Shown here: in pieces, positions 18,597 to 41,000 of the stretch
Layout: each line of letters begins with the position of its first letter
Numbering within the stretch: the stretch's first letter is position 1
NCBI RefSeq assembly: GCF_030758775.1
Contig: NZ_CP132384.1
Coordinates: 496,001-560,000 of the forward strand
DNA: 64,000 nt
Origin: Bifidobacterium asteroides
GTDB lineage: Bacteria > Actinomycetota > Actinomycetes > Actinomycetales > Bifidobacteriaceae
Direction: 5' to 3'
Translations under genes and position numbers: made by a program
The notes under the pieces: model-generated
What the model was told of the DNA's origin: nothing
The model's database searches: none
The model's input: the letters and a program-made list of their open reading frames with translations, nothing else

Positions 18597-18668
18597 TCCT
18601 CCGGGCCCTGGTCGCGGGCTAGATGAACATTTGAGGATATTGTCCACGACTTGCGCATGTCATGGGCA

Positions 18669-18695
18669 GCGAAACTGCTCAATTTCGCATATGAT
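18669..18695 (+). promoter_or_regulatory. Candidate promoter and operator of the nucleoside hydrolase operon
   Basis: GCGAAA (18669-18674) and TTTCGC (18683-18688) form an inverted repeat with an 8-base spacer. It sits directly against a good -10 (TATGAT, 18690-18695) about 80 bases before the start codon. The placement suggests a repressor, such as a LacI-type protein, blocking the promoter; no regulator gene is adjacent. Confidence 0.4.
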
Positions 18696-18776
18696 AAACA
18701 AGCATTCACCACAAGGACATCGTGGATGCATACGGCCATGGTTCCATACAGCCATGGCAATGAAAGGAAACATTGT

Positions 18777-19733: not shown

Positions 19734-19784
19734 GGTCCGCCATCCCCGGCAAGTCCACGCAAGAGAAAGAGAATTGACGACATC

Positions 19785-21173: not shown

Positions 21174-21253
21174 AACAGTTGCAGTCGACCGTCCGGGCGC
21201 GGAGAGGAGCTGCTTCCTCTGTTGCGCTTGGGCGGTCGACTGATATGTGTGGT

Positions 21254-21367
21254 GGGGGCGCGGGAGGGAAGTGTCGGCTCTCTTGGGGTTTGAGCCTTCA
21301 GTGGCACGTTTCCTCCCTGCTCCCCCTGTATGGGCCGGGGGCGGGGGGATTGATTCACCGCCCGGCC
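21254..21367 (-). terminator. Double hairpin after surface gene A (type 1)
   Basis: Reading the minus strand, GGCCGGG and CCCGGCC (21333-21367) form a first stem right after the stop codon of gene A. A second nested stem follows, with GGGAGG-type arms at 21262-21318 and inner GGCTC/GAGCC. The same block follows genes B, C and D. No U tract is present. It may also end transcription of the convergent transporter. Confidence 0.6.
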
Positions 21368-21371
21368 GCTC

Positions 21372-24300
21372 TTACTCGTGCGAAGCGTGAAGCAGCTGGT
21401 GTTGTTCTCTCCGGTGGCGGCAGGATGCCAGGACTCCGCTTATGCCGGTCATGCCGGTGGCCAGGGCGAGCAGGATGCCTTCCCCGCCTGCCTGGGGGAG
21501 CACGCCTGCTGGCAGGTACGTGTAGGTCAGCGATTTGTCGGTCATGGTACGTCCCGCGCCGCCCATCGTGTAGTCCACGCTGACCTTGACTAGGCCCGGC
21601 AGGTGTGCAGGCGTGAGCACGGTGATGCTGCTGCCATCGCCGCGTTTCAGGTTCGTGCCGGGATTGGTGTCGAACCTGGCCTTCATGATCACAGGTTGCA
21701 GGTTGAATGATACCGGTACAGGAGTCAAACTCGTTCCCGAATTGCTGCTACCGAGCTCACCAGAGTCATTCCATCCCCATGCCAAGGCGTTCCCACTCGT
21801 GTCGATTGCCAGCGAATGGACATCTCCTGCACTTACTAGTGAAACGTCTAGCCAAGGGCCGGCCGAGTTAGTAGATCGCGCAGAAGCAAATACTTTTACT
21901 GGGGAAAGCTGATCCATTGTGGTGTTGATGCCGAGCTCACCCCAGGTGTTGAATCCCCATGCCCAAGCGTTTCCTTTCTTGTCGATGGCCAACGAATGCC
22001 AGCGTCCTGCGCTTATCTGGACAGCCTTTACTGTGCCCCCGTTGGTAGGGTATTGCACCTTTTGCGGGACAGGGTTTGCAACGTTATAGCTGGTGCTGGT
22101 TCCGTTGCCGAGCTGACCACTGTTGTTTTGCCCCCATGCCCAGGTGTTCCCATCTTCGTCGATGGCCAGAGCATACCAGCCTCCTGCACTTACTTGAGTG
22201 GCTTTAAGCCAAGGATCTGCCGCAGATTTGGATTGGGTAGAGGAGGGCACGCGGTTGGGGATGGTCGAATAGCCACTAGTAGTTCCGTTGCCGAGCTGGC
22301 CGAGGTTATTATAGCCCCAAGCGTATACGTACCCGTCCTGGCCGATGGACAGGTCAAAGGACCAGCTGGTGCTGATCTGTAAGGCATGGAATGCGCCGCT
22401 GGCATCTGAGGGGTCCCTGACCTTGGTGGGGACGATCTGAGGGCTTGAGGAGCTATTATCGTTATTGGTCATGCTACCCCAGGTGTATACGCTCCCATCG
22501 GTGCCCAGAGCCATGGAGTTCCGTGCGCCGGCAGAGACCTGGATTGCTTTGAGGCCTTCGCCGGAGTTGTCTGGGCCATGCACGCGCACGGGTGTAGATG
22601 AATCTGATTTGGTTCCGTTGCCGAGCTGCCCGTGGTCGTTGAGTCCCCAGGCGTAAACGTATCCGTCGCTACCCAAGGCCAGCGAATGCGGGCCTCCGGC
22701 GCTGACCTGTACATAGGTGAAATCCGCCGGCCGGTCCGGATACGTCTTAAGATCAGGCTTTTTCACTACGACCGGCGCAGTCCGGGTGTTGCCGGTTGTC
22801 CCATCGCCGAGCTGACCATAATAGTTGTCTCCCCAAGAATATGAATTCCCGTCACTGCCAACAGATAACGAAGAGCCGTTGTCTCTTGAACTACTGACTT
22901 GATTTAATTTGATGCCGCGACTAGTAGCTGGCGGGGTGATAGTGGTCATCTCATTGCCGAGTTGGCTGCCTTTGTTGGGGCTGATGGTCCACGCTGTGCT
23001 GGGGTTTTTGCTCGTCCAGTGTGCGGTGAGGTTGAGATCTTTGGTGACGGGTTTGCTGAAGTCGTAGGCGATGTTGCCGGTGAACCATCCGTCGAACTGG
23101 TAGCCGTTGCGTGTTGGGTCGGGGGAGGGCCGTCGGACCCTGCCGTATGGGTAGGAGACTTTCTGGTTTTCTGGTGTGGGGGTTCCGCCGTCTATGTTGA
23201 ACGTGACCGTGTAGGGGGCGCCTGGCTCCATGTTTCTGGCCAGCGTCTGGTTGACCGTGTATTTGAGGTTTCTGGTGAAGCGTTGGCCGTTCTGCTTGCC
23301 GGTGATAGTGATGGCGGCTTGTCCTGGTTTGCTGGCGGGTGTTTGCGTCTGCCATGCGCCGGCGGTCTTGCTGAGCGTCAATGTCTGGCCGTCCAGGCTG
23401 GCTGATTTCAGGGTGGGCGTCTGTTTGGTGTCGAATCTTGCTGGCCTGCCGGGATTGCCTTGAGCGTCCAGGCTCCACGCAAGTATGCTACCCTGTCTGT
23501 CGATCGTGGTGATCCTGCTGCCGACGCTGACGGCTTGTATGTACTGTTTGTTCCCGTTGTCTGCGCGCATGGGCGTTTCGCCGGGTTTCCACGCCCAAAC
23601 GCGTCCCTCTGTGTCCGTGATCAGCGCCTGGTCATTGTTTGCGATGACTCGGCTGGTTTTCGCGCCGTCCGGCAGGCTGAGAGCGGTAGGGCCGGTAGTG
23701 CTGTCGGCTAGGTGATGGGCCTGCCCTTCTGTGTCAAGGAGGAGAAATTCTGTGCTGAGAGCTTCGGCTTGGATGATGCGCATGCCAGGGTTTTGTCTGA
23801 CGCGCGTGGGTTTGGCCTTTCCGATGTTGTTCGCGTCCCAAGTCCAGGCTTGTCCGTCCGCGTCCACGATGAGGATCTGGCTTGCGGAGGAGACGGCGGT
23901 GACGGCCTGTGCCTGTCCAGGCAGGCTTGCTGTAGCTTGTTCTCCGAGCTTTGGAGTTGGGTTCTGGGTGTCGGACTGGCTGGCTTGGAAGGTGTGAATC
24001 CCGCTCTTCTGATCTACGGCTAGAAGACGATCATTGTTCATGCTGATGCTGGTAAATTGGGCGTTCTGCCTGGTGTTGAGCATGGTGGGCGTGGCCTGTT
24101 GGCTGTCCCATGTGTAAATGTGCTGGTCGGATCCCAATGCGGCCTGCCATTGGCTGCCGGCTGCGGCCTGCAGGTAGTGGAACCCGTCGGATGCCTGCGC
24201 GGGGGAGTGAACCCGGTTGGGGGTGCCGTCTTGCGTCCATGTGTAGATGCGGCCGTCGCCGGTCAGGCCGATAAACCGGTCTCCTGCGGCTTGGATCTTG

Positions 24301-24924
24301 ACGTAGTAGGGCTCCTGCCCATTGGGCGGGCTGATGATCAGACGAGCGCCGGTGGCGGGCCCGTGGTCCGGGTTCAGCATCCAGTCCGTGGTCTTCGTCC
24401 ATTGGGCTTTCAGGATCGTGTCATGGAGGATAGGAGTCTGGAAGTCGAAAGGCTGGCCGCCGTATGTCCATCCGTCGAACTGGAAGCCATCACGTTGGGG
24501 ATTCTGTTGCGGGGGAGTGGGGAGAGTGCCGGTCTTCACGGTTGACTGCGTTGGCTTGCTTCCGTTATTCGGGTCGAAGCGCACTGTGTGCGAAGCCTGA
24601 TTATTTGTTTTTTCGGCTGTTTTAGTCGGTGAAGTGTCCCTACTGTCAGGTGTTGTCGTCGTCAATGACGGGGTGCCCGGACTTGCTGTTGGGTTTAGTG
24701 GTGTGGTGTTTTGTGTTGGTGAGGGTGATGGTAGTGGTGTGCTGGTTGCGTTGCTGGAGGAAATGCTGGGGGTTTGTTTAGCTACGCGAGGGGTCTGACG
24801 ACCCCCCCCCCCCGGTGAGTATGGGAGCCTCCGCCTGGGCGGATGCGACGCCCAGGCCTGCCAGCAGGCTGACCAGGACGGTCATCATCACACAGATGCG
24901 ACGCAGACGGGAAACTAGATGCAT
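21372..24924 (-). CDS. Surface protein A: double RCC1 propeller, phase OFF (G12)
   Basis: Starts MHLVSRLRR with an Ala-rich signal peptide ending near AQA, then TGGGG encoded by a 12-base G run. Here the frame shifts and stops within eight codons. Removing one G opens a 1183-residue protein. Approximate layout: Pro/Thr/Ser linker; InlB-type B repeat at 111-175 (VRFDPNNG to AQW); degenerate seven-bladed propeller at 182-495, with WTWD/WAWK motifs but lacking GQLG; TIG second half at 498-551; B repeat at 575-638; canonical RCC1 blades at 658-1061 (seven WG motifs); TIG half; LPQAG at 1142; hydrophobic segment and RHRR tail. Predicted sortase-anchored and probably involved in binding; the ligand is unknown. 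AAGGGG lies 10 bases before the ATG. Confidence 0.88.
24802..24813 (-). repeat. Poly-G tract of gene A, 12 G (OFF)
   Basis: Twelve C's on the plus strand (12 G in the coding strand) directly after the signal-peptide region. The downstream frame needs 11. With 12 the reading is GGGGSSDPSRS then stop. Confidence 0.9.
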
Positions 24925-25353: not shown

Positions 25354-28300
25354 TTACTCGAGTGAAGCGTGTAGCAGTTGGTGTTGTTCCCTCCTGTGGC
25401 GGCGGGAGGCGAGGACCCCTCCCATGCTTACTGTCCCGGTGGCTAGGGCGAGCAGGATGCCTTCCCCACCAGCCTGGGGGAGCACGCCCGCAGGTAGGTA
25501 CGTGTATTGGAGTTTGTTGTAGGTAAGCATATTTCCTGCGCCGCCCAGCGTGTAGTCCACGCTGACTGTGACCGTGCCCGGCAGGTGCTCGGGCGTGAGC
25601 ATGGTGACGCTATTGCTGTTGCTGATTTGAGTCAGATGTTTAGCGGGGCTGGCATCGAACCTGGTGCGGCTAATCACTGGAGCTAGATTGAACACCACCG
25701 GCTCCGGAACAGAATTCGTCTTAGAACCCCTTGTTGCGTCCTTACCGATCGCTCCATACTGGTTGTTTCCCCATGCTTTGGTGTATCCGTCCGTGCCTAT
25801 CGCCAGCGAATGGTAGTCTCCGGCGCTTGTCTGTGTGGCATTCAGACAGAGGCCTGCAGAGCTTGCAGTCTGCTCGAAGGCGAACACCTTTACCGGGATA
25901 GACTGATTGCTCGTGCTGTTGTCGCCGAGCTGGCCATATTCATTGTTTCCCCAAGCCCAGGTATTGCCGTCCTTGTCGACGGCCAACGAATGCCAGCCTC
26001 CGGCGCTCACCTGCACGGTCTTTACCATCCCCGCATTCGTAGGGTATTGCACCTTTTGGGGAACGGTATTCGTTCTAGCGCTGCTATTGATGTTACCGTT
26101 GCCGAGCTGGCCAGAGTTGTTGCGCCCCCATGCCCATGTGTTCCCGTTGTCGTCGATCGCTAGTGAATGATGATCTCCGGCGCTTACTTGTATGGCTTTC
26201 AACCAAGGTCCGGCTGAAGCTGTGGACTTGTTGGAGGCGAACACACGGTTTGGTTTGGAATGGAAGATTGTGGTGAAATCGCCATCCTTTCTTTTGTTGC
26301 CGAACTCGCCACTGGTGTTATAGCCCCAAGCGTATACGTAATGGTCCTGTCCGATGGCTAAGTTGAAAGCCATGTTGGTGCTTATTTGCGTTGCATGGAA
26401 GACACCGCTTGCATCCGACGAATCCTTAACTGCAACAGGGAGAGTCTGCGGACTAGTGCGGACGTAGTCGAATCCGCTGGCCATGCTGCCCCATGTGCAC
26501 ACTGTCCCATCAGCGCTCAACGCCGTGGAGCTCCATGTTCCGGCGCTGACTTGTATGGCCTGCAGCCCTTTGCCTGCATCAGCGGGGCTGGCAGGGTTGC
26601 GTACGCGCATAGGGACAGACGAATTCGTCTTGGTGTTGTTGCCGAGCTGACCGTAGTTGTTTAATCCCCATGCGTAGATGTATCCGTCGCTGCCTAGGGC
26701 CAGTGAATGCTCGCCTCCGGCGCTGACCTGCACGTAGGTGAAGTCCGCTGGCAGGTCCGGGTACGTGTTGCGGTCAGGTGTCCTCACCCTGACCGGCGTG
26801 TACTGGCTGCTGGTCGTCCCGTCGCCGAGTTGGCCATACTTGTTGTATCCCCAGGCGTAGGCGTTCCCGTCGCTGCCCACCGCCAAGGAAAAACCGTAGT
26901 TAACGTCTACCGACCCGCTGATCTGGCTGAATCGTACTCCTCGGCTGGTGTCTGGCGGGGTGATGGTAGTGGTTTCGTTGCCGAGCTGGCTGCCCTTGTT
27001 TGGGCTGATACTCCACGTGTTGTTCTGTGTGTTGGGCGTCCAGTGTGCAGTGAGAGTGAGGTTCTTGGTGACGGGCTTGCTGAAATCGTAGGCGACATCG
27101 CCGATGAACCATCCGTCAAACTGGTAGCCTTTACGCATTGGGTCGGGTGAGGGTCGCTTTGCTCTACCGTATGGGTAACTGATTTGCTGTGGTTTGGGTG
27201 CTTGGCCTCCTCCGGCTGTATTGAAAGTGACTGTATGGATGGAATCCTGTTCGGCATCCCTTAGCAGTGTCTGGTCGACGGTGTACTTCAGGTTCCTAGT
27301 GAAGGTCTGGCCGTCCTGCCTGCCTGTGATAGTGATGGTGGCTGGCCCGGGCTTGTGGTTTGGAAGCTTTATCTGCCAGAATCTGTCTTCTTTACTCAGC
27401 CTCATTGGCTGGCTGTCCATGCTGGCTGTTTCCAGGATCGGTGTCTGCGTTGTGTTTAGTCTGATTGGTTTGTCTTGAACGTCTGGATTCCACATGGACA
27501 TGCCGCCTTGCCTGTCCAAGGCGGTGATTTTACTGCCCATGCTGATGGCCTGTGTGTAGTAGTGGTTCCCGTTGTCTGCGCGCACGGGTGCCTTGCCGGG
27601 CTGCCAGGCCCAGACGTGGCCGTCCCTGCTTGTGATCACTGCCTGGTTCTTGTTGGTAGTGATTCTGCCGGCTTTCTGGCTATCGGGCAGGCTGATGGCA
27701 GTGGTACTGGTTGCGCTGTCGGCCAGGTATTGGACCTGCCCGTCCGCGTCTAGGAGGAGGAATCCTGAGCTGAGTGCTGTGGCTAGGGTGATGCGCATGC
27801 TCGGATCCTGCTTAATGTGTTCAGGCTTGATGCTGCTATTGTTGATTGCTTTCCATGTCCAAACGTATCCGTCCGTGTCCTGAGCGAGGATCCGGCCGGA
27901 TGAAGTGACGGCAAGGACGGCCTGCGTCTGACTGGGCAGGCCGGTCGTGGCCTGCTCGACTGGCTTCGGGTCGGAATCATTGCCGTCGGTTTGTCCGGCT
28001 TGGAAGGTGTGGATTCGGCCCTGCTGGTCCACGGCTAGCAGTCTGTCATCGTTCAGGCTGATGCTGGTGAATTGGGTGTTCCGGCCAGTGTCGAGGATGG
28101 TGGGCGTTGCCTGTCTGCTCTCCCATGTGTAGATGTGCTGGTCGGATCCTAATGCGGCCTGCGATTGGCTGCTGGTTGCGACTTGCAGATAGTGGAACCC
28201 GTCGGCAGCTTGGGCGGGGGAGGGGACCTGCATGGGTGTGCTGTCTTGCGTCCAAGTGTAGATGCGGCCGTCGCCGGTTAGGCCCACAATTTGGTCTCCT

Positions 28301-28945
28301 GCGGCTTGGATGCTGCTGTAGTAGGGTTCCTGCTTGTCGGGCGGGCTGATGGTCAGCTGGGTGCCGGTGGCGGGCCCATGGTTCGGGCTTAGCGTCCAGT
28401 CTGTGGTTTTGGCCCATTTTGCAGTCAGGGTTATGTCTTGGAGGATGGGTGTCTGGAAGTCATAGGGCTGGTCGTCAAGCGTCCATCCTTCGAACTGGAA
28501 GCTTTCACGTGCAGGGTTGTGTTCTGGAGGGATGAAGAGGGTGCCGGTTTTCACGGTTGATTGTGTTGGCTTGTTTCCGTTATTCGGGTCGAAGCGCACC
28601 GTGTGCGTGGCTTGATCATCCGTCTTGTCGGATGGCTTGGTTGAAGCGGAATTCGTACTGCTGGTAGTAGCTGTCGGCGATGATGGAGCAGATGGATCTG
28701 TTGTTTCGGGATTTAATGGTGATGTGGTTGTCAGTGGTGATGGGGTCGGAAGTGGAGTGTGTGTTGCGTTGCTGGGGAGAGTGCCGGGGGTTCCGTTAGC
28801 TACGCGAGGGGTCTGACGACCCCCCCCCCCCGGTGAGTACAGGAGCGTCCGCCGCGTTTGCGGACGCGACGCCCAAGCCTGCCAGCAGGCTCAGCAGGAC
28901 GATCACCATCGCCAACGCGCGACGAAGACGAGAAACCACATGCAT
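25354..28945 (-). CDS. Surface protein B: double RCC1 propeller, phase OFF (G12)
   Basis: Starts MHVVSRLRRALAMV, with a signal peptide and TGGGG from a 12-base G run that shifts the frame to an early stop. With 11 G the open protein is 1196 residues and uninterrupted. It has the same layout as A: linker, B repeat (VRFDPNNGNKP), degenerate seven-blade propeller, TIG half, second B repeat (VTFNTAGGG), seven canonical blades (for example YAWGYNKYGQLGDG and WAWGNNEYGQLGDN; the third and seventh are irregular), TIG half, LPQAG at 1155, hydrophobic anchor, basic tail. AAGGGG lies 10 bases before the ATG. The downstream frame shows no decay, as expected for a gene switched back on often enough to be under selection. 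Confidence 0.88.
28820..28831 (-). repeat. Poly-G tract of gene B, 12 G (OFF)
   Basis: Twelve C's on the plus strand, with the same flanks as in A, C, D, H and I. One base more than the open-frame length of 11. Confidence 0.9.
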
Positions 28946-29140
28946 GAAACCAAAACCCCTTACCAACACCAAACGAATTCAAATGCCGTTTGTTTGTTTA
29001 AAGTTCTGTCCGTCGGAAAGCCCTTCTGTCCTTCAACGCCAGCCCTGCATCGGATTGCATGAGCCAATGGCGGAAGCCAGTTGTCTTCTCGACGCCCCCA
29101 CGTTTTTCACCATACCACCGGATTAACAAGCAACACACAC
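28946..29140 (-). promoter_or_regulatory. Leader and promoter region of gene B (type 1)
   Basis: Shares the type 1 leader of genes A, C and D, including the GAAACC/AACCCCTT start and the block whose minus strand reads GGTGGTATGGTGAAAA (candidate -10 TATGGT at 29109-29114). It carries about 20 bases of extra sequence relative to A. The rest, to 29320, is unassigned. Confidence 0.4.
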
Positions 29141-29441: not shown

Positions 29442-32400
29442 TTACTCGAGTGAAGCATGTGACAGTTGGCGTGTTTCCTGCCGGTGGCGGCGTGAGGCGA
29501 GGACCCCGCCCATGCCGGTCATGCCCGTAGCCAGGGCGAGCAGGACGCCCTCCCCTCCGGCTCGGGGGAGCACGCCCAGGGGTGTGTACGTGTAGGTCAG
29601 GGACTTGTCCGTCAGGGTGCTTCCTATTCCGCCCATCGTGTAGTCGACGCTGACCGTGACCGTGCCCGGCTGATGAGCGGGCGTGGTCACGGTGACGTTG
29701 TTGCTGTTGCTGACAGGGTTCAGGCTCTTGGCTGGGCTGGTGTCAAACCTGACTGCGCTGATCACCGGCTGCAGGTTGAACGCTACCGGCACAGGAACAG
29801 TCGATTCCCTAGTGGTGCCGTCGCCAAGCCGCCCATAGTTGTTGTATCCCCATGCTTTGATGTTCCCATCCGTGTTGATGGCCAGCGAATGATGGTTTCC
29901 GGCGCTTATTTGTACGGCATTCAGCCAGGGGCCGGCCGAGTTCGTGGATTGTGAAGAGGCGAAAACTTTCACGGGGTATGAATATTTAGTGTACGTGCCC
30001 CTGCCAAGCTGACCATGATCGTCGTCTCCCCATGCCCAGGCGTTCCCGTCCTTGTCGAGGGCCAGCGAATGAAAGCCTCCGGCGCTGACCTGTGTGGCTT
30101 TCAACCCTTTGCTTGCGTCTGTGGGGCTGTTGGGGTCGCGTACGCGCACAGGAGCATACGAAGAGCTGGAGCTGTTGTTGCCGAGCTTACCAAACCCGTT
30201 GTTTCCCCAAGCATAGGCATATTCGTTGCTGCCCACAGCCAGCGAATAATAGTTTCCGGCGCTGACCTGTGTGGCTTTCAACCCTTTGCTTGCGTCTGTG
30301 GGGCTGTTGGGGTCGCGTACGCGCACAGGCACATACGAAGAGCTGGAGCTGTTGTTGCCGAGCTCACCATTGCCGTTGCTTCCCCATGCCCAAGCGTTCC
30401 CGTCCTTGTCGAGTGCCAGCGAATGATAATTTCCGGCGCTGACCTGAATGGCTTTCAATCCTTTGCTCGCGTCTGTGGGGCTGTTGGGGTCGCGTACGCG
30501 CACAGGCACATACGAAGAGCTGGAGCTGTTGTTGCCGAGCTGGCCATTGTTGTTTAATCCCCAGGCGTAGGCGTATTCGTCGGTGCCCACGGCCAGCGAA
30601 TGATAGCCTCCGGCGCTGACCTGAATGGCTTTCAATCCTTTGCTCGCGTCTGTGGGGCTGTTGGGGTCGCGTACGCGCACAGGAGCATACGAAGGGCTGG
30701 AGCTGTTGTTGCCGAGCACACCATTGGAGTTGCTTCCCCAGGCGTACACGTATCCGTCACTGCCTAGGGCTAGCGAATGATATTGTCCGGCGCTGATCTG
30801 CACATAGGTGAAATCCTCTGGCAGGTCCGGATACGTCTTGCGGTCAGGCGTCTTCACTCTGACCGGCGTGTACTGGTAGTAGGTGGTCGTCCCGTCGCCG
30901 AGCTGTCCATACGTGTTGTTTCCCCAGGCGTACGCGTCCCCGTCGCTGCCCACAGCTAAGGAAAAGCCGTACTCGTAGTTTTCTTTTGACCCGCTTATTT
31001 GACTGACCCGTATGCCTCGGCTGGTGTCTGGTGGGATGATGGTGGTGGTTTCGTTGCCGAGCTGGCTGCCCTTGTCGGGGTTGATCCGCCATTGGTTGTT
31101 TTGCGTGTTGGGTGTCCAGTGGGCGGTGAGGGTGAGGTCTGTGGTGACGGGTTTGCTGAAGTCGTAGGCGATGTTGCCGGTGAACCATCCGTCGAACTGG
31201 TAGCCGTCGCGTGTTGGGTCGGGGGAGGGCCTCTGGACCCGGCCGTATGGGTAGGAGACTTGCTGGTCTGCTGGTTTGGGGGTTCCGCTGTCTGTGTTGA
31301 AGGTGACTGTGTGGGTGGTGTTTGGTTCCGTGTCTCTGGTCAGCTGTTGGTCGACTGTGTAGTTGAGGCTTCTGGTGAAGGTTTGGCCGTCCTGCCTGCT
31401 GGTGATGAGGATGGCGGCTGGTCCGGGCTTGTGTGCGGGGATCGGCGTCTGCCATACGTCGCCGGTCTTGGTGAGTTTGAGCGGCTGGCTGTCCATACTG
31501 GCTGATTCCAGGGTGGGGGCGGTGTTGGTGTTGAGTCTTGCTGGCTTTCCGGGTTTGCCTTGAGCGTCCAGGCTCCACGCGAGCATGTCGCCCTGACTGT
31601 CCAGAGCGATAATCCTGCTGCCGGCTTCGGCGGCCTGCATGTAGTGCTGGTCCCCGTTGTCCGCGCGCATGGGTGTCTTGCCGGGCTGCCATGCCCAGAC
31701 CTGACCGTTCGTATCAGTGATCATGGCCTGGCTGCCGTTGCCGGTGATCGTTCCGGCCTTGCCGCCGTCCGGCAGGCTGACTGCTATCGCGCTGGTGGTG
31801 CTGTCGGCCAGGTAATTGGCCTGCCCGTTCGCGTCCAGCAGGAGGAACCCTTGGTTGAGGGCTTGGGCTTGGATGATGCGGATTCCTTGGTCTTGCTTGA
31901 TGCGTGCAGGTTTGATGCTGCCAATCTTGTTCGTATCCCATCTCCAGGCTTGTCCGTCCGCGTCCACGATGAGGACCCGGCTGCCGGAGGCGGCGGCGGT
32001 GATGGCCTGTGCCTGTCCGGGCAGGCTGTTCGTGATTTGGTCTGTGAATTTCGGGTTCAGGTCCTGGGTGCCGGGCTGGCTGGCTTGGAAGGTGCGGACC
32101 TGTCCTTGCAGGTCCACGGCTAGCAGTCTGTCATCGTTCATGCTGATGCTGGTGAACCTGGTGTTTTGGCCGGTGTCGAGGGTTCCGGGTGTGGCTTGTT
32201 GGTGGGCCCAGGTATAGATGTGCTGGTCGGAGCCCAATGCGGCTTGCCATCGGCTGCCGACTGCGGCCTGCAGGTAGTGGAACCCGTCGGGAGCCTGGGC
32301 GGGGGCGGGAACCTGTGTTGGCCTGTTGTCCTGCGTCCAGGTGTAGATGCGGCCGTCACCGGTCAGGCCCACAATCTGCTCCCCTGTGGCATGAACACTG

Positions 32401-33029
32401 GTAAATTGAGGTTCCTGCCTGTCGGGCGGGCTGATGGTCAGCAGAGCGCCAGAAGCGGGCCCGTGATCCGGGCTCAGCGTCCAGTCCGTTGCTTTGCTCC
32501 ATTGCGCAGTCAAGGTGGTGTCTTGGAGGATGGGGGTCTGGAAGTCGAAAAGCTGGTTGTCGAGTGTCCACCCGTCGAACCGGAAGCCCTCACGTGCAGG
32601 GTTGTGTTCCGGAGGTACAACGAGAGTGCCGGTTTTCACGGCTGACTGTGTTCGCTTGCTCCCGTCGGCAGGGTCGAAGCGCACTCTGTGCGTGGCCTGG
32701 CTATCCGTCTCATTGTTATTGAATGGCTTGGTCGAAGGTGAGCCTGTGTTGTCCTGCGTGCCTGTCGGCGTTGACAAGGTGTTTGGATTTGCTGTTGGGT
32801 TTAATGGTGCGGTGGCTTGTATTGGTGATGGTGTGGGCAGTGGTGTGTTGATTGCGCTGCTGGGGAGAGTGGCGGGGGTTTGCTTAGCTACGCGAGGGGT
32901 CTGACGACCCCCCCCCCCGGTGAGAATGGGAGCGTCCGCCTGGGCGGATGCGACGCCCAGGCCTGCCAGCAGGCTGATCAGGACGGTCGTCATCGCCAGC
33001 GTGCGACGCAGTTGGGAAACCACATGCAT
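29442..33029 (-). CDS. Surface protein C: double RCC1 propeller, phase ON (G11)
   Basis: Open for 1195 residues from MHVVSQLRRTLAMTT; a GTG-type start seven codons upstream is less likely because AAGGGG lies 10 bases before the chosen ATG. The signal peptide ends near ASAQA, then ILTGGGGRQTPRVAKQ reads through an 11-base G tract. The layout is as in A. The second propeller is unusual: four of its blades are nearly identical 59-residue units sharing VRVRDPNSPTDASKGLKA and LGNNSSSSSY. Sorting signal LPRAG at 1154, hydrophobic span, then RRHRQE tail. Predicted to be displayed on the cell wall in the sequenced state. Confidence 0.92.
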   Translation of the reverse strand: MHVVSQLRRTLAMTTVLISLLAGLGVASAQADAPILTGGGGRQTPRVAKQTPATLPSSAINTPLPTPSPIQATAPLNPTANPNTLSTPTGTQDNTGSPSTKPFNNNETDSQATHRVRFDPADGSKRTQSAVKTGTLVVPPEHNPAREGFRFDGWTLDNQLFDFQTPILQDTTLTAQWSKATDWTLSPDHGPASGALLTISPPDRQEPQFTSVHATGEQIVGLTGDGRIYTWTQDNRPTQVPAPAQAPDGFHYLQAAVGSRWQAALGSDQHIYTWAHQQATPGTLDTGQNTRFTSISMNDDRLLAVDLQGQVRTFQASQPGTQDLNPKFTDQITNSLPGQAQAITAAASGSRVLIVDADGQAWRWDTNKIGSIKPARIKQDQGIRIIQAQALNQGFLLLDANGQANYLADSTTSAIAVSLPDGGKAGTITGNGSQAMITDTNGQVWAWQPGKTPMRADNGDQHYMQAAEAGSRIIALDSQGDMLAWSLDAQGKPGKPARLNTNTAPTLESASMDSQPLKLTKTGDVWQTPIPAHKPGPAAILITSRQDGQTFTRSLNYTVDQQLTRDTEPNTTHTVTFNTDSGTPKPADQQVSYPYGRVQRPSPDPTRDGYQFDGWFTGNIAYDFSKPVTTDLTLTAHWTPNTQNNQWRINPDKGSQLGNETTTIIPPDTSRGIRVSQISGSKENYEYGFSLAVGSDGDAYAWGNNTYGQLGDGTTTYYQYTPVRVKTPDRKTYPDLPEDFTYVQISAGQYHSLALGSDGYVYAWGSNSNGVLGNNSSSPSYAPVRVRDPNSPTDASKGLKAIQVSAGGYHSLAVGTDEYAYAWGLNNNGQLGNNSSSSSYVPVRVRDPNSPTDASKGLKAIQVSAGNYHSLALDKDGNAWAWGSNGNGELGNNSSSSSYVPVRVRDPNSPTDASKGLKATQVSAGNYYSLAVGSNEYAYAWGNNGFGKLGNNSSSSSYAPVRVRDPNSPTDASKGLKATQVSAGGFHSLALDKDGNAWAWGDDDHGQLGRGTYTKYSYPVKVFASSQSTNSAGPWLNAVQISAGNHHSLAINTDGNIKAWGYNNYGRLGDGTTRESTVPVPVAFNLQPVISAVRFDTSPAKSLNPVSNSNNVTVTTPAHQPGTVTVSVDYTMGGIGSTLTDKSLTYTYTPLGVLPRAGGEGVLLALATGMTGMGGVLASRRHRQETRQLSHASLE
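30064..30775 (-). repeat. Four near-identical 177-bp tandem repeats in gene C
   Basis: The marker TACGCGCACA recurs at 30141, 30318, 30495 and 30672, a strict 177-base period equal to 59 codons. Each unit is one RCC1 blade. Other family members have diverged blades, so this array looks recently amplified or homogenised. Unequal crossing-over here would add or remove whole blades. Confidence 0.85.
32908..32918 (-). repeat. Poly-G tract of gene C, 11 G (ON)
   Basis: Eleven C's on the plus strand, so the coding frame is continuous through GGGGRQTPRVAK. Confidence 0.9.
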
Positions 33030-33250
33030 GACTCGTAAACCCCTTACCATTACTGGGCATTGTCTGTTGGTTCGCGACGGTCGAACCAGCGAAACAGTGC
33101 CGCTTTGCCTTGTAACGTCTTGTCCATCGAAAAACCGTTCAGCCTTTCAGCGCCAGCCCTTGCATCCAATTGCACGAACCACTGCGGAAGACAGACACAT
33201 TTCCGATGCCCTGTTTTCACACCATACCACCGGGCCGAAAAAACAACACA
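33030..33250 (-). promoter_or_regulatory. Leader and promoter region of gene C (type 1)
   Basis: The most divergent copy of the type 1 leader. The conserved promoter block remains (minus strand GGTGGTATGGTGTGAAAA, candidate -10 TATGGT at 33221-33226, about 190 bases before the start). Positions 33251-33600 hold no gene I can support. Confidence 0.35.
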
Positions 33251-33600
33251 CGAAGCAATCCGTGATAGCCGATCCGCACGGTACGGCGAGCCATCATTAA
33301 CTGTTATGTCAGCGTCGTATTGTCCGATTAATCGCATCACTGTGTCGACTCTTATATCGACCGCCATGTTCAGCATCTGCTCAGCAACGGAACGGGCTGG
33401 CAAATCAGATGTGAGGGAAGCGGCAGTGTCAATCAGGTCTGGATGCTACGGATGGCGGCATCCAATGCCCTGTGTGGGCGAACGTTTCGGTCGAACCTAG
33501 CATGGTGCGATCCGGTAGTTATCATTCTCCGACGGCCAAGGATAGTGCGGTTGAAGAATCCGGAATCTGTTGGTTTTTCCGTCGCTCTCAAAAAGACCGG

Positions 33601-33755
33601 TCAGCTATGCCAGGATAGGCCTGATGCACTTGCCTATCCTTTCGCCTGTGCTTGACACGCTGCCTCAAATGCAGTTGGACCGTGTTGTGGGTATGAATGA
33701 TCGGGCTATGAATGGATCGGTTTGGCCTGCATCACGGTCATTGGCGGTTAAATAA
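33601..33755 (+). pseudogene. Decayed 3' fragment of the MFS transporter
   Basis: The frame reads YARIGLMHLPILSPVLDTLPQ then VVGMNDRAMNGSV. It aligns with YAGVGLMYSPIVSTVLDTLPQ and GVGMNDLVMNVTGS of the intact transporter (20861-21010). About two thirds of residues match, and the DNA also aligns, with small indels toward the end. It lies on the plus strand just before the type 1 hairpin and the end of gene D, the same arrangement as the intact transporter and gene A. This marks it as a duplication scar. Confidence 0.85.
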
Positions 33756-33758
33756 GTG

Positions 33759-33873
33759 TGGTGGGGGCGCGGGAGGGGTGTCGGCTCTCTTGGGGTTTGA
33801 GCCTTGATTGGCACGTTCCTCCCTGCTCCCCCTTGATGGGCCGGGGGCGGGGGGATTGATACGCCGCCCGGCC
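33759..33873 (-). terminator. Double hairpin after surface gene D (type 1)
   Basis: Fourth copy of the type 1 3' block. The outer arms are slightly shorter here (GGGAGG is followed by GGTGTC without the AAG). Confidence 0.55.
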
Positions 33874-33877
33874 GCTC

Positions 33878-36800
33878 TTACTCGCGTGAAGCGTGTAGCA
33901 GTTGGCGTGTTTCCTGCCGGTGGCGGCGTGAGGCGAGGATCCCGCCCATGCCGGTCATGCCGGTGGCCAGGGCGAGCAGGATGCCTTCCCCGCCGGCCTG
34001 GGGGAGCACGCCTGCGGGCAGGTACGTGTATCGGAGAGAGGTGTCCGGCTTTTGGGGTGCGCCGCCCAGCGTGTAGTCGACGCTGACGGTGACCGTGCCC
34101 GGCTGGTGCGCGGGCGTGAGCACGGTCACGCTATTGCCATCGCCACGGGTCAGGCCTGATACGGCGGTCTGGTCGAATCTGACGCCGGTGATCACCGGCG
34201 TCAGGTTGAACGAAACCGGCACAGGAGCCGACTTGCTGTTTGTGGTGTCGTCACCGAGCTGGCCATTGTCGTTCCGTCCCCAGGCTTTTGCGTTCCCGTC
34301 TATGCTGATCGCTAATGAACAATGGTAGCCTGCGCTGATTTGCACGGCTTGCAGCCAGGGGCCGGCCGAGCTTGTGGACTGCGCGGACGCTAGCACCTTC
34401 ACCGGGATAGTCCGGTCGCTGGTGCTGTTGTTGCCTAGCTGGCCATAGCTGTTGTATCCCCATGCCCAGGTGTTCCCCTCCTTGTCAAGTGCAAGCGAAT
34501 GTTTACCTCTGGCGCTGATTTGCATGGCTGTCACGGAGCCCGCATTCGCGGGGTATTGCACGCGCACGGGAATAGGATTCGCACCATTGCTGCTGGTGGT
34601 GCCGTTGCCGAGTGCGCCATAAGTATTTTGTCCCCATGCCCAGGTGTTCCCGTCCTCGCCGATAGCCAATGCGAACCATCCGCCGGCGCTCACCTGGACG
34701 GCCTTCAGCCAGGGGCCCGCAGCAGCCGTGGACTTGCTGGAGGCGAACACGCGGCTGGGCGTGGGGTGGAAGACGGTGGTGCTGGTACCGTCGCTGGTGT
34801 TGTTGCCGAGCTGGCCGTTGGTGTTGTATCCCCAGGCGTATACATACCCGTCCTGGCCGAGGGCCATGTCGAAGGACCAGCTGGTGCTGATCTGCACGGC
34901 GTGGAGGACGCCGCTCGCATCCGAAGGGTCCTTGACCGTTGCGGGCACGGTCTGCGGGCTGGAGCAGTCATAGCCCCATCCTTTGGATATGCTGCCCCAG
35001 GTGTATACGGTGCCGTCGGCGGCCAATGCCATGGAGTTCCAGGCTCCTGCGGCGACTTGGATGGCTTTCAGCCCTTCGCCGGTGTTGCCGGGCCCGTGCA
35101 CGCGCACGGGGGTCGATGAATTGGACTTGGTGTTGTTGCCGAGCTGCCCGTGGTCGTTGAGTCCCCAGGCGTACACGTACCCGTCGCTGCCGATGGCCAG
35201 CGAATGGTAGCCTCCGGCATAGGCCTGCACGTAGGTGAAATCCGCGGGCGCGCCTGCAGGCTTTGGCACCGGTACGGGCGTGTTCTGCTGGGTGGTCGTC
35301 CCGTTGCCGAGCTGGCCGAACTTGTTGTTGCCCCAGGCGTAGGCGTTCCCGTCGCTGCCCACAGCCAGCGAATACCCAGTCTGATCACCCATGACGTATC
35401 CTCCGCTGCTGACCTGGCTGAACCTGATGCCCCGGCTGGCGCTGTCAGGCGGGGTGATGGTAGTGGATTCCCTGCCCAGCTGGCTGCCCTTGTTGGGGCT
35501 GATCCTCCACATGTTGCTTGCGTTTTCTGGCGTCCAGTGGGCGGTGAGGATGAGGTCTGTGGTGACGGGCCTGCTGAAGTCGTAGGCGACTTCCCCAGTG
35601 AACCACCCGTCGAACTGGTAGCCTTCGCGCGTCGGATCAGGCGTGGGCCGCTGGATTCTGCCGTAGACTGGCTGGATGCTCTGGTCCTGGGGGGTCGGGC
35701 CTCCTCCGCTCGCGTTGAAATGGACCGTGTAGGTGGAATCCTGCTGGTCGCCTCTGGTCAGCGGCTGGTCGACCGTGTAGCCGAGGCTCCTGGTGAAAGG
35801 CTGGCCATCCTGCCTGCCGGCGATGGTGATGACGGCTTGTCCGGGCTTATGGGCGGGCATCTCCGTCTGCCAGGAACCGTCTTTCCTGCTGAGCGTCAAT
35901 GCTTGCCCGTCCATGCTGGCTGATTCCAGTGTGGGTGTCTGTGTGGTGTCGAGCCGGTCTGATTTGCTTAGCTGGCCTTGCTCGTCCAGATTCCACTGGT
36001 ATAGGCTGCCCTGCCTGTCCACGGCGGTGATTCTGCTACCGATGCGGACCGCTTGCATGTAACGCTGCTTTCCGCTGTCTGCGCGGGTGGGCGTATCGCC
36101 GGGCTTCCAGGTCCAGAGGCGGTCGTCCGTGCCGGTGATGATGGCCTGGTCCTTGTTGGCGGCGATCCGGCTGGCTTGCACGCCGTCCGGCAGGCCGACG
36201 GCTGCAGGAATGGCTGTGCTGCCAGCCAGGTACCGGGCCTGCCCCTGTGAACCCAGAAGAAGGAACCCTTGGCTGAGGGTTTGGGCTTGAGTGAAGCGCA
36301 TGCCCGGGTCCTGCTTGACGCGTCCGGGCTTGGCTTTTCCGGTCTTGCTCGCCTCCCAGGTCCAGAGGTGCCCGTCCGCGTCCAGGGCGAGGATCCGACT
36401 GGCGGAAGCGAAGGCGAGAACGGCTTGCGCCTGTCCGGGCAGGCTGGTTGCGGCCTGCTCCAAGAATTTCGGATTCTGATTCTGGCTGCCCGTCAGGCTG
36501 TCTTGGAAAGCGTGGACCTGTCCCTGCCGGTCCAACGCCAGCAGCAGGCTGTCGTTCATGCTGATGCTGGTGAACCTGGCATCCTGGCTGGTGTCGAGGA
36601 TGGTGGGCGTGGGCTGTTGGCTGGTCCAGGTGTAGATCCGCTGGTCGGATCCGAGAGCCGCCTGCCGGCGGCTGCCGGCTGCGGCCTGCAGGTAGCGGAA
36701 TCCGTCGGCAGCCTGGGCGGGGAAAGGCACCTGTTTGGGCGGGCAGTCTTGCGTCCAGGTGTAGATGCTGCCGTCGCCGGTCAGGCCGACGGTCTGGTCT

Positions 36801-37441
36801 CCGGCGGCATCAAGGCTGGCGAATTGGGGCTCCTGCCTGTCGGGTGGGCTGATGGTCAGCCTTGCGCCGGAGGCGGGCCCATGGTCCGAGCTCAGCGTCC
36901 AATCAGTGACCTTCAACCATTGCGCTGTCAGGGTCGTGTCCTGGAGAATAGGGATCCGGAAGTCGAAAGGTTGGCCGTCAAGCGTCCACCCGTCGAACCG
37001 GAAGCCATCACGCTCAGGGTTCTGTCGCGGGGGAGCGGCGAGAGTGCCGGTTTTCACGCTCGTTTGGGTGGGTTTGCTGCCGTCGGCCGGGTCGAAGCGC
37101 ACTGTGTGCGAAGCCTGATCAGCTGTCTTCTCGGCTGGTTTGGCCTGGGCGGAGCCTGTGCTGCCGGGTGTTCCCGTCGTCGATGACGGGGTTCCTGGGC
37201 TTGCTGTCGGGCTTAACGGTGTGGCGGCTTGTATCGGCGATGGCGATGGTAGTGGAGTTTCTGGAGTGTTGCTGGGGAGGGTGCCGGGGGTTTGCTCAGC
37301 TACGCGAGGGGTCTGACGACCCCCCCCCCCGGTGAGAATGGGAGCGTCCGCCTGGGCGGATGCGACGCCCATGCCTGCCAGCAGGCTGATCAGGACGGTC
37401 ATCATCGCCATGATGCGACGCAGACGGGAAACCAGATGCAT
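33878..37441 (-). CDS. Surface protein D: double RCC1 propeller, phase ON (G11)
   Basis: Open for 1187 residues from MHLVSRLRRIMAMM. Signal peptide, then TGGGGRQTPRVAEQ through an 11-base G tract, Pro/Thr/Ser linker, B repeat (VRFDPADGSKP to AQW), degenerate first propeller lacking GQLG, TIG half (SASMDGQ to GYTV), second B repeat (VHFNASGGG), and seven canonical blades such as YAWGNNKFGQLGNG and WAWGYNSYGQLGNN. Then a TIG half (ITGVRFDQT), LPQAG at 1146, anchor and RRHRQE tail. AAGGGG lies 10 bases before the ATG. It is the last type 1 member; E onward differ in leader and terminator. Confidence 0.92.
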   Translation of the reverse strand: MHLVSRLRRIMAMMTVLISLLAGMGVASAQADAPILTGGGGRQTPRVAEQTPGTLPSNTPETPLPSPSPIQAATPLSPTASPGTPSSTTGTPGSTGSAQAKPAEKTADQASHTVRFDPADGSKPTQTSVKTGTLAAPPRQNPERDGFRFDGWTLDGQPFDFRIPILQDTTLTAQWLKVTDWTLSSDHGPASGARLTISPPDRQEPQFASLDAAGDQTVGLTGDGSIYTWTQDCPPKQVPFPAQAADGFRYLQAAAGSRRQAALGSDQRIYTWTSQQPTPTILDTSQDARFTSISMNDSLLLALDRQGQVHAFQDSLTGSQNQNPKFLEQAATSLPGQAQAVLAFASASRILALDADGHLWTWEASKTGKAKPGRVKQDPGMRFTQAQTLSQGFLLLGSQGQARYLAGSTAIPAAVGLPDGVQASRIAANKDQAIITGTDDRLWTWKPGDTPTRADSGKQRYMQAVRIGSRITAVDRQGSLYQWNLDEQGQLSKSDRLDTTQTPTLESASMDGQALTLSRKDGSWQTEMPAHKPGQAVITIAGRQDGQPFTRSLGYTVDQPLTRGDQQDSTYTVHFNASGGGPTPQDQSIQPVYGRIQRPTPDPTREGYQFDGWFTGEVAYDFSRPVTTDLILTAHWTPENASNMWRISPNKGSQLGRESTTITPPDSASRGIRFSQVSSGGYVMGDQTGYSLAVGSDGNAYAWGNNKFGQLGNGTTTQQNTPVPVPKPAGAPADFTYVQAYAGGYHSLAIGSDGYVYAWGLNDHGQLGNNTKSNSSTPVRVHGPGNTGEGLKAIQVAAGAWNSMALAADGTVYTWGSISKGWGYDCSSPQTVPATVKDPSDASGVLHAVQISTSWSFDMALGQDGYVYAWGYNTNGQLGNNTSDGTSTTVFHPTPSRVFASSKSTAAAGPWLKAVQVSAGGWFALAIGEDGNTWAWGQNTYGALGNGTTSSNGANPIPVRVQYPANAGSVTAMQISARGKHSLALDKEGNTWAWGYNSYGQLGNNSTSDRTIPVKVLASAQSTSSAGPWLQAVQISAGYHCSLAISIDGNAKAWGRNDNGQLGDDTTNSKSAPVPVSFNLTPVITGVRFDQTAVSGLTRGDGNSVTVLTPAHQPGTVTVSVDYTLGGAPQKPDTSLRYTYLPAGVLPQAGGEGILLALATGMTGMGGILASRRHRQETRQLLHASRE
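37320..37330 (-). repeat. Poly-G tract of gene D, 11 G (ON)
   Basis: Eleven C's on the plus strand; the frame is open across it. Confidence 0.9.
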
Positions 37442-37616
37442 GAAACCAAAACCCCTTCACCAAACACCAAACGGAACCAACACCGCATGCCTATTCAACG
37501 TTCTGCCTGCCAGCGCCCACCCTGCATCAAATCGCAGGAGCCGATGGCGCAAGCCAGCCGTCTTCTCGACATCCCCCGCTTTTCACCCTACCACCCAGCC
37601 CGCCGACAACACACAC
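37442..37616 (-). promoter_or_regulatory. Leader and promoter region of gene D (type 1)
   Basis: Closely matches the leader of gene A over about 150 bases. The minus strand reads GGTGGTAGGGTGAAAA (candidate -10 TAGGGT at 37585-37590). Confidence 0.4.
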
Positions 37617-37692
37617 GAGCCGGAGCCAGGCGTTCGAATGTAGGGAGACCCCAGCCTCCTGTTAAGCATCGCTTCGCTAACCAGTGCTTCAA

Positions 37693-37718
37693 CTTCCAGA
37701 CTCCTATCTGTCTGGAAG
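37693..37718. other. Perfect 9-bp hairpin in the D-E intergenic region
   Basis: CTTCCAGAC (37693-37701) pairs with GTCTGGAAG (37710-37718) around an 8-base loop. No gene flanks it closely and no other copy was noticed. The surrounding 37617-37915 is otherwise unassigned and marks the boundary between type 1 and type 2 genes. Confidence 0.45.
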
Positions 37719-37915
37719 CAAATCGGGCTGACTAATCAAACGAAGGAAAGCGAGGCATGACTGAGGGCACCAATCTGATCTGACAGCCCGTCGGCTCACC
37801 TCATCATGACTGAACTAGCCACCCTTCTCGGCGGTTAATCCCCTGTTTTACGAGGATCGCAAGGGGCAAGCCGGTAGTCAGAGGTAAGGCCAATGCCGTT
37901 CTGGCGGAAGTATAT

Positions 37916-37952
37916 GGGTGGCCCCTTTGTGTTGGGGGAGTTGGGGCCACCC
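37916..37952 (-). terminator. Type 2 terminator hairpin after gene E
   Basis: GGGTGGCCCC (37916-37925) pairs perfectly with GGGGCCACCC (37943-37952). Homologous hairpins follow F, G, H, I and J. The U-rich tail is weak in this copy. Confidence 0.65.
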
Positions 37953-38014
37953 GTGTGGTCCGGGAGTGTGTTGGGGATAGTGATAACCCGGACCTGCTTA
38001 CACGAGGGAAGTCT

Positions 38015-41000
38015 TTATTGTTGTCGGCTGTGGGTTTCCAGCCGGTGGCGCCTGGCTGCTGCGGCGCATGCGAAGGCAAGCAGCTCGGCTATGAGCAGGG
38101 GGAGCAGGCCGCCTCCTCCGGCCCTGGGCAACACGCTGATGGAGTTGTACCGATACGTGTTGCTGGTGTCGGGGGTCTGGGCTGCTCCGTTCAGTCTCCA
38201 TTCGATGGTGACGGTTGACGTACCGGGCATGTGTGCCGGCGTGGTCACCGTCCAGGTACCGTCGGAGTTCTTGGTCAGGTCGGAGGCTTCCACATTGTCG
38301 AACTGGACGTGCGTGGGGATGCCAAGCCTGGGGAAGGTATCCTTTGCCGGGCTGGCGTCCTGAGCGCTGCCGGTGTCACGGCCCAGCTGGCCACTATCGT
38401 TGTCTCCCCAGCTGTAAAGGTTGCCGTCGGATCCCAGGGCCAGGCAGTACGATGCTCCTGCGCTGGCCTGGGTGAAGGTGATGTCTGCTGGGGTATCCAC
38501 CTTGTTGGGCCTGTCTGACGAGGTTTTGCCGCTGTCGCCCCAGGTGTAGAGGTTGCCGTCGGATCCCAAGGCGATGGAATGCGCGCCTCCGGCGCTGGCC
38601 TGGGTGAAGGTGATGCCAGCCGGGGTTTCAACCTTGCCGGGCTTGTCTGCGGGGGTGTTGCTGGTGTCGCGGCCGAGTTGTCCATTGGCAGTGTTGCCCC
38701 AGGTGTAGATGCTGCCGTCGTCGCTTACGGCCACGGAGTGGCTTCCGCCTGCGCTGGCCTGGGTGAAGGTGACCCCTGCCGGGGTGTCGGCTTTGCCGGG
38801 CTTGTCTGCGGGTGTGCTCGTGGTGCTGCGACCGAGTTCGCCGTGGGTGTTGTTGCCCCAGGTGTAGACGTCGCCTTGCGTGTCCACGGCTACCGTGTGG
38901 CCCTGGCCTGCACTGACACTGGTGAAAGTTACGTCTGTCAGGGTGTCCGCTTTGCCGGGCTTGTCTGCGGGGTTGTTGCTGGTGACGGCACGGCCCAGCT
39001 GGCCAGCGCTGTTGTCTCCCCATGTGTAGATGTTGCCGTCCGAATCAACAGCCGCCACATGGGATCCGCCTGCGCTCACCTGGATGAAGGTGAGGCCTGC
39101 AGGTGTCTCCACCTTGTTGGGTCTGTCGGCTGGGGTGTTGCTGGTGACTGTGCGCCCGAGCTCGCCGTGGGCGTTGTCTCCCCAGCTGTAAAGGCTGCCA
39201 TTGGAGGCCAGTGCTACGGAAAATCCGTAGCCTGCGCTGACATGAATGAAGTTGACGCGTGCAGGAGTATCCGCCTTGATTGGATGGCTGTCCTGCTTGT
39301 CGGCGGTGTCGCGGCCCAGCTGGCCTTGGCTGTTGTCTCCCCAGGTGTACAGGCTGCCGTCGGAGCCCACGGCTGCGGAATGGAGGTCTCCTCCGTCAGC
39401 CTGGCTGATGCGGATGCCGCGTGCTGGCGGTGGAGTCAGGGTGACGGTTTGGCCGCCACTTTCAGGCCCGTTGTCCTTGTCGAGTTTCCACTTGGTGTTA
39501 GCTCTGCTCCAGTGGGCGGTCAGGGTCACCTTGTCGGTGACCGGCCTGCTGAAGTCATAGGCTGTGTCGCCGATGAACCAGCCGTCGAACAAATAGCCAC
39601 CCCTGATCGGATCCTTATCGGGGCGTTTCACTTGGTTGCCCTCAGTCACGGACTGCCAGTAGAACCCGAAGCCGCCAGCGGTGTCGAAGGTGGGATGGTA
39701 GGTTTCCAGGTACCTGTAGGGCAAGTGCGCGTCCGGTCGTTCGCCGTTCATCCTCCAGGTAATGACTGCATCCACTCTGCCATGGTCATGTTTTGGCGTG
39801 ATGACGCTCCAGGTGCCGTCCGGGTTGGGGTCGAGGTTGGTGCCGGGCGTCCCGCCGAAGCTCACGTTATCGGGCTTGGGATCTTCGGGGAATGCGACCA
39901 TGCCGGGGCGGCTGTCGTACTTGCCGCTGGTGGGGCGTCCCAATTCGCCGTACTGGTTGTATCCCCAGCTGTACAGGTTACCGTCGGAGCCGATGGCCAG
40001 GGAGTGGGAATAGTCTGCGCTGACTTGGGTGAATTGTGCGACACCTGCTGGTGTAGGCACTTTGCCCGGCTTGACGTCGTATTTGGCTGATCCGGTGTCG
40101 CGACCCAGCTGACCGCAGTCGTTGAGCCCCCAGCTGTAGAGGTTACCATCTGATCCCAAGGCCAGGGAATGCTCGCGTACTGTACTGATCTGGGTGAATT
40201 TCTTGACGCCTGTCGGCATAGTCACCTTGCGTGGTCTGCGGTCTCGAGTTGCTGATCCGGTGTCGCGTCCCAGCTGACCGTATTCGTTCCATCCCCAGCT
40301 GTAGAGGTTGCCATCCAAGCCGATGGCCAGGGATGTCCACTGTCCAGCCATGATCCACGTGTATTTCTTGACGCCTATCGGGGTGGAGACCTTGCGCGGT
40401 GTTCGGTCTTCTTTTTTCAAACCGATGTCGCGTCCCAGCGCCTCGTTAGCATTGCCCCCCCAGCTGTAGATGTCGCCGTCCGAGTCCAGAGCCATGGAGT
40501 AGAAGGGACCTGCGCTGATCTGGGTGATTTTCGCGACACCTGCCGGCATGGACACCTTGCCTGGCTTGGCATCATATGTGGCTGAACCCGTGTCGCGTCC
40601 CAGTTCGCCGTAGCTGTTGTTTCCCCAGCTGTAGAGGTTGCCATCTGAGCCCAAGGCCAGGGAATGCCAGGCTCCTACGCAGGTCTGGGTGAAGTGGACG
40701 CCGGCCGGAGGAGTCACCAGCCCCGGCTGATTGTCTATCTTAGAAGGGGGAGTGGTGTCGCTGACGATTTCGCGTCCCAGTTGGCCTTGTTTGTTGTATC
40801 CCCAGCTGTAGAGATTGCCGTCCGATCCCAGGGCCAAGGAATGAGAGGATCCTCCGCTGACCTGGGTGAAGCGGACGCCGGTCGGCGGGTTGACCAGGCT
40901 CGGTGTACGTTTTTCTTCGTCAGGGGTTCCCGCTTTGTAGTTGTTGTCCCCCCACCGGTAGAGGTTGCCGTCTGAGGCTATGGCCTGGGACCCATCTTCT

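Follow-up and report, generated by a model that had tools for sequence, protein, structure and literature searches.

A decayed segment of a neighbouring transporter gene within an array of RCC1-repeat surface protein genes in Bifidobacterium asteroides

Organisation of the locus

The DNA that was analysed, hereafter the window, is a stretch of 64,000 nucleotides from a Bifidobacterium asteroides genome (G000; 2,083,947 bases in a single contig), the near relatives of which are honeybee Bifidobacterium of the asteroides complex. In the window, the genes for a nucleoside hydrolase and for an MFS transporter (18651-21173, + strand) are oriented toward a series of - strand RCC1-repeat surface genes, genes A to F included (Table 1). 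Based on their Pfam matches (RCC1 repeats and the Listeria-Bacteroides repeat), A to F belong to the RCC1-repeat surface family of bee bifidobacteria, and the C-termini of A to D carry LPQAG or LPRAG, a hydrophobic stretch and a basic tail, i.e. by eye a putative cell-wall anchor. Orthologues of the transporter (94-99% amino-acid identity) are found in 12 other genomes of the genus. Its closest NCBIfam models are drug-efflux pumps, but the matches are far under the cut-offs (best 163 bits versus 925), so that no drug-efflux function follows from them.

Table 1 Features of the transporter and surface-gene region (positions in the window)
Feature	Position	Strand	Basis or remark
Nucleoside hydrolase (IU_nuc_hydro) gene, 5' of transporter	18651-19733	+	Pfam PF01156, E 9e-91
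Intact MFS transporter of 462 aa, from which the relic derives	19785-21173	+	Pfam MFS_1
Terminator-like stem of the transporter, -50 kcal/mol	21182-21242	+	Fold z -8.1; GGCGGT inside at 21231-21236
Type 1 hairpin element beside gene A	21244-21371	+	92% identity with the hairpin of D
Gene A, RCC1 / Listeria-Bacteroides repeat surface protein	21372-24665	-	ORF and Pfam
Gene B, same surface-protein family as A	25354-28599	-	ORF and Pfam
Gene C, same surface-protein family as A	29442-33050	-	ORF and Pfam
C-D intergenic stretch	33051-33598		94% identical to the stretch preceding the relic in G020
GGTCAGC, join of 287-bp deletion	33599-33605	+	In G020 the repeat occurs twice, 287 bp apart, with the intervening DNA present
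Transporter relic, codons 359-407	33605-33748	+	DNA and protein alignment, shuffles
GGCGGT, possible join of a deletion removing the last transporter codons and terminator	33743-33748	+	The intact gene has the repeat at 21000 and 21231; same end in G020
Type 1 hairpin element beside gene D	33754-33877 (start about 33751)	+	Hairpin comparison
Gene D, RCC1-repeat surface protein	33878-37441	-	Pfam; 3' end of single-unit-array type (transporter-adjacent, four arrays)

At the 3' end of each of genes A to D lies a type 1 hairpin of ~127 bp. The copies of A to C are 92-95% identical to that of D, whereas the genes themselves are about 73-78% identical in blast pieces; the hairpins are thus far more alike than their genes, which suggests homogenisation or selection. 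Ten further copies of D's hairpin (~33751-33877) occur in the genome, nine of them at 91-96% and one at 81% identity. Upstream of gene C, 33113-33251 resembles 28999-29138 upstream of gene B (73%), with similar stretches at three other places, which perhaps represent a shared promoter region.

A transporter relic in front of gene D

Just before the type 1 hairpin of gene D lies a piece of DNA that, as the original prediction had it, aligns with the transporter of the nucleoside operon. When 33001-38500 was compared to the window (blastn), 33605-33712 matched 20861-20968 without gaps (73.1% identity over 108 nt, E 1.4e-11), and in a looser alignment of 33600-33748 with 20856-21005, which is weaker past 33712, 105 of 150 columns are identical with one gap. 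The homology is also visible on the protein level, with 25 of 38 residues identical in the transporter's own frame and no stop (tblastn, E 3e-9). The local score of the relic, 57.5, compares to a maximum of 20 in 300 dinucleotide shuffles. A similarity no better than that to unrelated MFS genes, which was considered along with the prediction, can be set aside: the two other MFS genes of the genome (found with the transporter protein; 43% and 27% amino-acid identity) score 11.5 and 13.0 against the relic, and for nine MFS relatives taken from other genomes the scores range from 11 to 33, being highest for those of 65-66% amino-acid identity. The window's other MFS gene (17086-18456) gave no match to 33001-38500 at E 0.001 (blastn).

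What is left is an inner segment (49 of 462 codons) and not the 3' end of the transporter, as had been proposed; the last 55 codons and the terminator are absent, and the similarity ends at 33748. The presumed likeness in layout to the intact transporter and gene A holds in so far as a transporter fragment precedes hairpin and gene, but the relic directly abuts the hairpin, whereas in the intact gene 70 bp with a strong terminator-like stem separate stop codon and hairpin. Judged by its sequence, 33605-33748 is a degraded, non-functional pseudogene relic of the neighbouring nucleoside-operon MFS transporter: with so few codons left in the window, and two in-frame stops in the longer copy of another species (G020, see below), it cannot encode a transporter. 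Unlike this longer copy, the window relic (33600-33755) is stop-free in its starting frame for 51 codons, which is probably due to chance.

The same relic in a second species

In a survey of 27 genomes of the genus (own included), with 200 bases around the relic as query, 14 genomes gave a match, all 14 at the intact transporter. Further places were matched only in G000 and G020, namely the relic in both and, in G020, additionally the left flank of the relic. Among the 26 other genomes, the relic is thus found at the matching place in one, B. mizhiense (G020), where it stands before the fifth surface gene. The two relics are 82% identical over 145 nt, that of G020 extending about 11 codons further 5', to codon 347-348. 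Upstream of it, G020 has a spacer of ~200 bp (its counterpart in G007, 67% identical over 202 bp at E 9e-8, adjoins a type 1 hairpin directly on the 5' side), followed by ATATGTGTGGT, then by ~44 bp without a match, and then by the relic. The 11 bp of ATATGTGTGGT are identical to the hairpin start beside the transporter, a match that is modest taken alone, since 9 of 500 shuffles score equally. This order suggests that G020 has kept a junction between a hairpin start and the transporter interior, with the ~44 bp left over between them. The missing 5' part of the transporter was sought in the 251 bp of extra DNA of G020, most of which is array spacer, and none was found there (score 14.0 versus a shuffle mean of 14.6).

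The motif GGTCAGC is present once in the window (33599) and twice in G020, where the two repeats bound the 287 bp missing from the window, which means that this DNA was deleted between two short repeats. GGCGGT forms the end of both relics, just 5' of the hairpin. Since GGCGGT is found at 21000 and 21231 in the intact gene, a 231-bp deletion between these positions may account for the absence of the final codons and the terminator. This join is the less certain of the two: its chance occurrence is ~1% by a hand estimate from base composition, and the bases from GGCGGT to the hairpin differ.

Between the two relics, 18% of sites differ; compared with the intact gene of the same genome, the relic of G000 differs at 30% of sites and that of G020 at 34%. 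The two relics share 27 changes at sites where 11 core transporters agree, from which it follows that much of the decay predates the parting of the two. By codon position, the differences between the relics number 12, 8 and 6, and the shared changes 7, 7 and 13 of the 27. The third-position lean of the latter is compatible with chance (P 0.08, or 0.20-0.34 if a GC-to-AT mutation bias is allowed for), so that codon positions neither date the duplication nor demonstrate a selected period. Upstream of the transporter, G004 is closer to the source genome (94.6% over 10 kb) than G020 is (94.4, 92.3 and 90.6% in three pieces), yet its unit 2 is not preceded by a relic; loss or transfer between strains must therefore be assumed.

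Transporter tails in other arrays

The DNA 3' of the transporter was read for up to 20 kb in the 12 other genomes with 94-99% transporters (40 kb in G020; contig ends limit G009 and G010). Counting G000 as well, ten of the 13 genomes have type 1 hairpins 3' of the transporter, with none in the stretch read of G009, G011 and G025. Counted by hairpin, the DNA read holds five units in G007 and G020, four in G000, G008 and G022, two in G004, and one in G003 and G019; G010 has one unit and then its contig ends, and G012 has one unit in an assembly with N runs.

Before unit 3 of G007, G008 and G022, decayed transporter codons ~408-462, a stop codon and the terminator are seen, i.e. the part that is missing from the relic. 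The decayed transporter end as a whole (tail, stop and terminator, in register) scores z 6.5, 7.0 and 6.0 in these three genomes versus -1.4 to 3.3 in 11 control units, and the terminator alone z 10.6, 9.1 and 7.7 versus -1.0 to 3.9 in 38 hairpin units from other loci. Altogether, the terminator piece was scored in 66 hairpin units, of which the 10 first units reach z 19.8-34.7; one unit from another locus (G020_C3 8490; z 3.6 and 3.9) beat the terminator shuffles in one of two runs. The 700 bp before the unit 3 hairpins do match intergenic stretches of the window (z 8-38). That the tails are ordinary intergenic DNA was nevertheless rejected, as their tail part aligns with the transporter (z 5.2, 7.4 and 4.9 in G007, G008 and G022); in six of the 11 control units, this tail-part score is -1.4 to 0.8.

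Unit 4 of G008 and of G022 probably carries a transporter relic as well, judging from the tail (z 3.3-3.4) and the terminator (z 5.2-7.9, that of G022 not being above the best shuffle in one run). Unit 4 of G007 was not counted (terminator z 4.5 and 4.2, beating the shuffles in one of two runs; transporter end z 1.0), and neither was unit 2 of G004, which at z 3.3 is above its own shuffles but has a tail at -1.4 and a terminator at -0.4. Hence, of the 18 non-first units, five have a clear relic (the inner segment at D and unit 5 of G020; tail, stop codon and terminator at unit 3 of G007, G008 and G022), two a probable one and 11 none. Clear transporter relics are held by five of the six arrays with at least two units at the locus, G004 being the exception, although G008 and G022 are near-identical (unit 3 99%) and should count as one observation.

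The first and last units were likewise compared for flank relics at a second array (G000 762-782 kb, L106), which has hairpins at 4457 and 12647, and at the corresponding arrays of G004 and G020. The ~120 bp before the first hairpin recur before the last unit fetched, at 88-93% identity in G000, G004 and G020 (L106, L115 and L111, respectively). In G000, the match stops short of the neighbouring Bax1-I gene.

Relation of gene D to genes A to C

In blast pieces, gene D is 75% identical to A, 73% to B, and 74 and 78% to C, while it is 74% identical to its positional counterpart in G020, which indicates that old gene relations have become blurred. Gene D cannot be shown to be a copy of A, since neither whole-gene identities nor half-gene trees single out A. 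The copying of a block with transporter end, hairpin and surface gene, as originally predicted, is supported for the transporter piece, which is duplicated before D (and in G020, with tails in G007, G008 and G022). For the surface gene it cannot be demonstrated, as the gene bodies are mosaic and D shows no greater similarity to A than to the other two genes, B and C.

At the 3' end of the genes, over the 450 bp adjoining the hairpin, D and unit 5 of G020 fall into a split of 9 of the 28 units (support 0.974), together with the first units of G003, G010, G012 and G019 and the interior units G004_2, G020_2 and G007_5. Outside this split are A, B and C, as well as six of the ten first units (A, G004_1, G007_1, G008_1, G020_1 and G022_1). 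The next 500 bp into the gene give other groupings, in which D goes with G020_3 and G007_4, and D's hairpin is nearer to those of A to C than to those of the single-unit arrays. Genomes with a single surface gene beside an intact transporter, which the prediction had called for, do exist: G003, G012 (with assembly gaps) and G019 have a single type 1 unit there, and G010 has one unit before its contig end. What comes after the transporter in G025 and G011 is a GH127 gene, and the stretch read there holds no type 1 hairpin. The 3'-end split and the layout of G025 and G011 fit a history in which the transporter at first had one D-type gene beside it and A to C were placed between the two later. 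From these sequences, it looks like D is the older neighbour of the transporter and A to C are later arrivals. The idea that A to C came to lie between the two transporter copies thereby gains some support from the single-unit genomes and the 3'-end grouping of D, tempered by the three interior units that the split holds and the six first units that it omits.

The GH127 (beta-L-arabinofuranosidase-like) gene separates the type 1 units from gene E in G003 (L064:6426-8849; Pfam) and, by matching residues, at the same place in G012, G019 and G022, while it is directly 3' of the transporter in G025 (L067:1571-4075; Pfam) and G011 (matching residues). Between D and E in the window (37442-38014) there is no room for it, and it is absent there in G004 and G020 too.

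Origin of the relic

It is likely that a block event left the transporter relic inside the array, after which the useless tail decayed. Recombination without long homology would have linked the start of a type 1 hairpin, at the edge of the surface-gene block, with the interior of a transporter copy, no later than codon 347. The product would have read intact transporter, hairpin, A to C, hairpin start joined to transporter tail, terminator, hairpin and D. It could have been reached either through tandem duplication of a block running from the transporter to a later hairpin, or through uptake of a donor block with an intact transporter and new surface genes. The transporter tail would then have decayed, with loss of the last 55 codons and the terminator (in G020 too), perhaps between the two GGCGGT repeats, and the source genome lost its 287 bp between the GGTCAGC repeats.

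Alternatively, a short internal piece of the transporter may have been copied into the hairpin region during repair (i.e. a templated insertion), without any block duplication. The relic being internal only, in the window as well as in G020, would agree with this, as would the hairpin-start sequence that seemingly occurs on both sides of the relic in G020. Such an insertion is however unlikely given the tails before unit 3 in three genomes, which include the stop codon and the terminator and are in register with a hairpin, the fact that the source gene is the array's own flanking gene, and the 3' end of D, which is of the transporter-adjacent type in four other species. Even less probable is an origin from another transporter paralogue that was once functional beside gene D and of which the relic would be the tail. 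The relic is 25-36% diverged from 13 close transporter orthologues (108-nt core) and third codon positions are slightly favoured among the changes that the two relics have in common, but this lean is within chance, the two paralogues of the genome score at background, and no intact second transporter copy is present at the relic site in G000 or G020. Chance similarity, for which only a short match at 70-73% identity would speak, can be dismissed in view of the E values for DNA (1e-11) and protein (3e-9), the same strand, the matching place in G020 and the shuffles.

More generally, the type 1 hairpin might be the opening point of the arrays, where new units enter beside the flanking gene and carry along the end of that flank. 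We consider this reading doubtful; were it true, the flank relics inside each array would form an ordered fossil record of its growth.

Comparison with known systems

Homology-facilitated illegitimate recombination exists in bacteria, and by analogy could explain how a donor block was joined inside a resident copy of the same gene. In yeast, the parts of the CUP1 report that were available describe tandem arrays that arose by non-homologous unequal recombination (PMC4232551). There, as may be the case here, arrays result from a join of non-homologous flanking sequences; CUP1 however is a yeast metallothionein gene, whereas the present join is bacterial, decayed and partly deleted.

The closest known system is that of the tandem RCC1-repeat clusters of honeybee bifidobacteria, which, according to the available portion of the source, grow as genes duplicate and diverge, their proteins in general not being positional orthologues (PMC4449606, 2015); 19 such surface-protein genes are reported for one strain in the accessible part of an earlier paper (PMC3447821, 2012). 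The gene family (RCC1 and Listeria-Bacteroides repeats) and the host clade are, as far as these portions go, the same as here. A relic of the flanking transporter and a probable order in which units joined are described here, and are not mentioned for the clusters in the accessible parts of those two papers; nor did the open-access literature searched, in its available text, contain a report of a flanking-transporter relic in such arrays. While the relic leaves knowledge of the proteins themselves unchanged, it is a physical marker of array growth in a bee symbiont, setting a probable older neighbour apart from later genes where the gene bodies are too mosaic to reveal the order of arrival alone. 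It is, in this sense, a small new detail on arrays whose growth by duplication is already described (PMC4449606).
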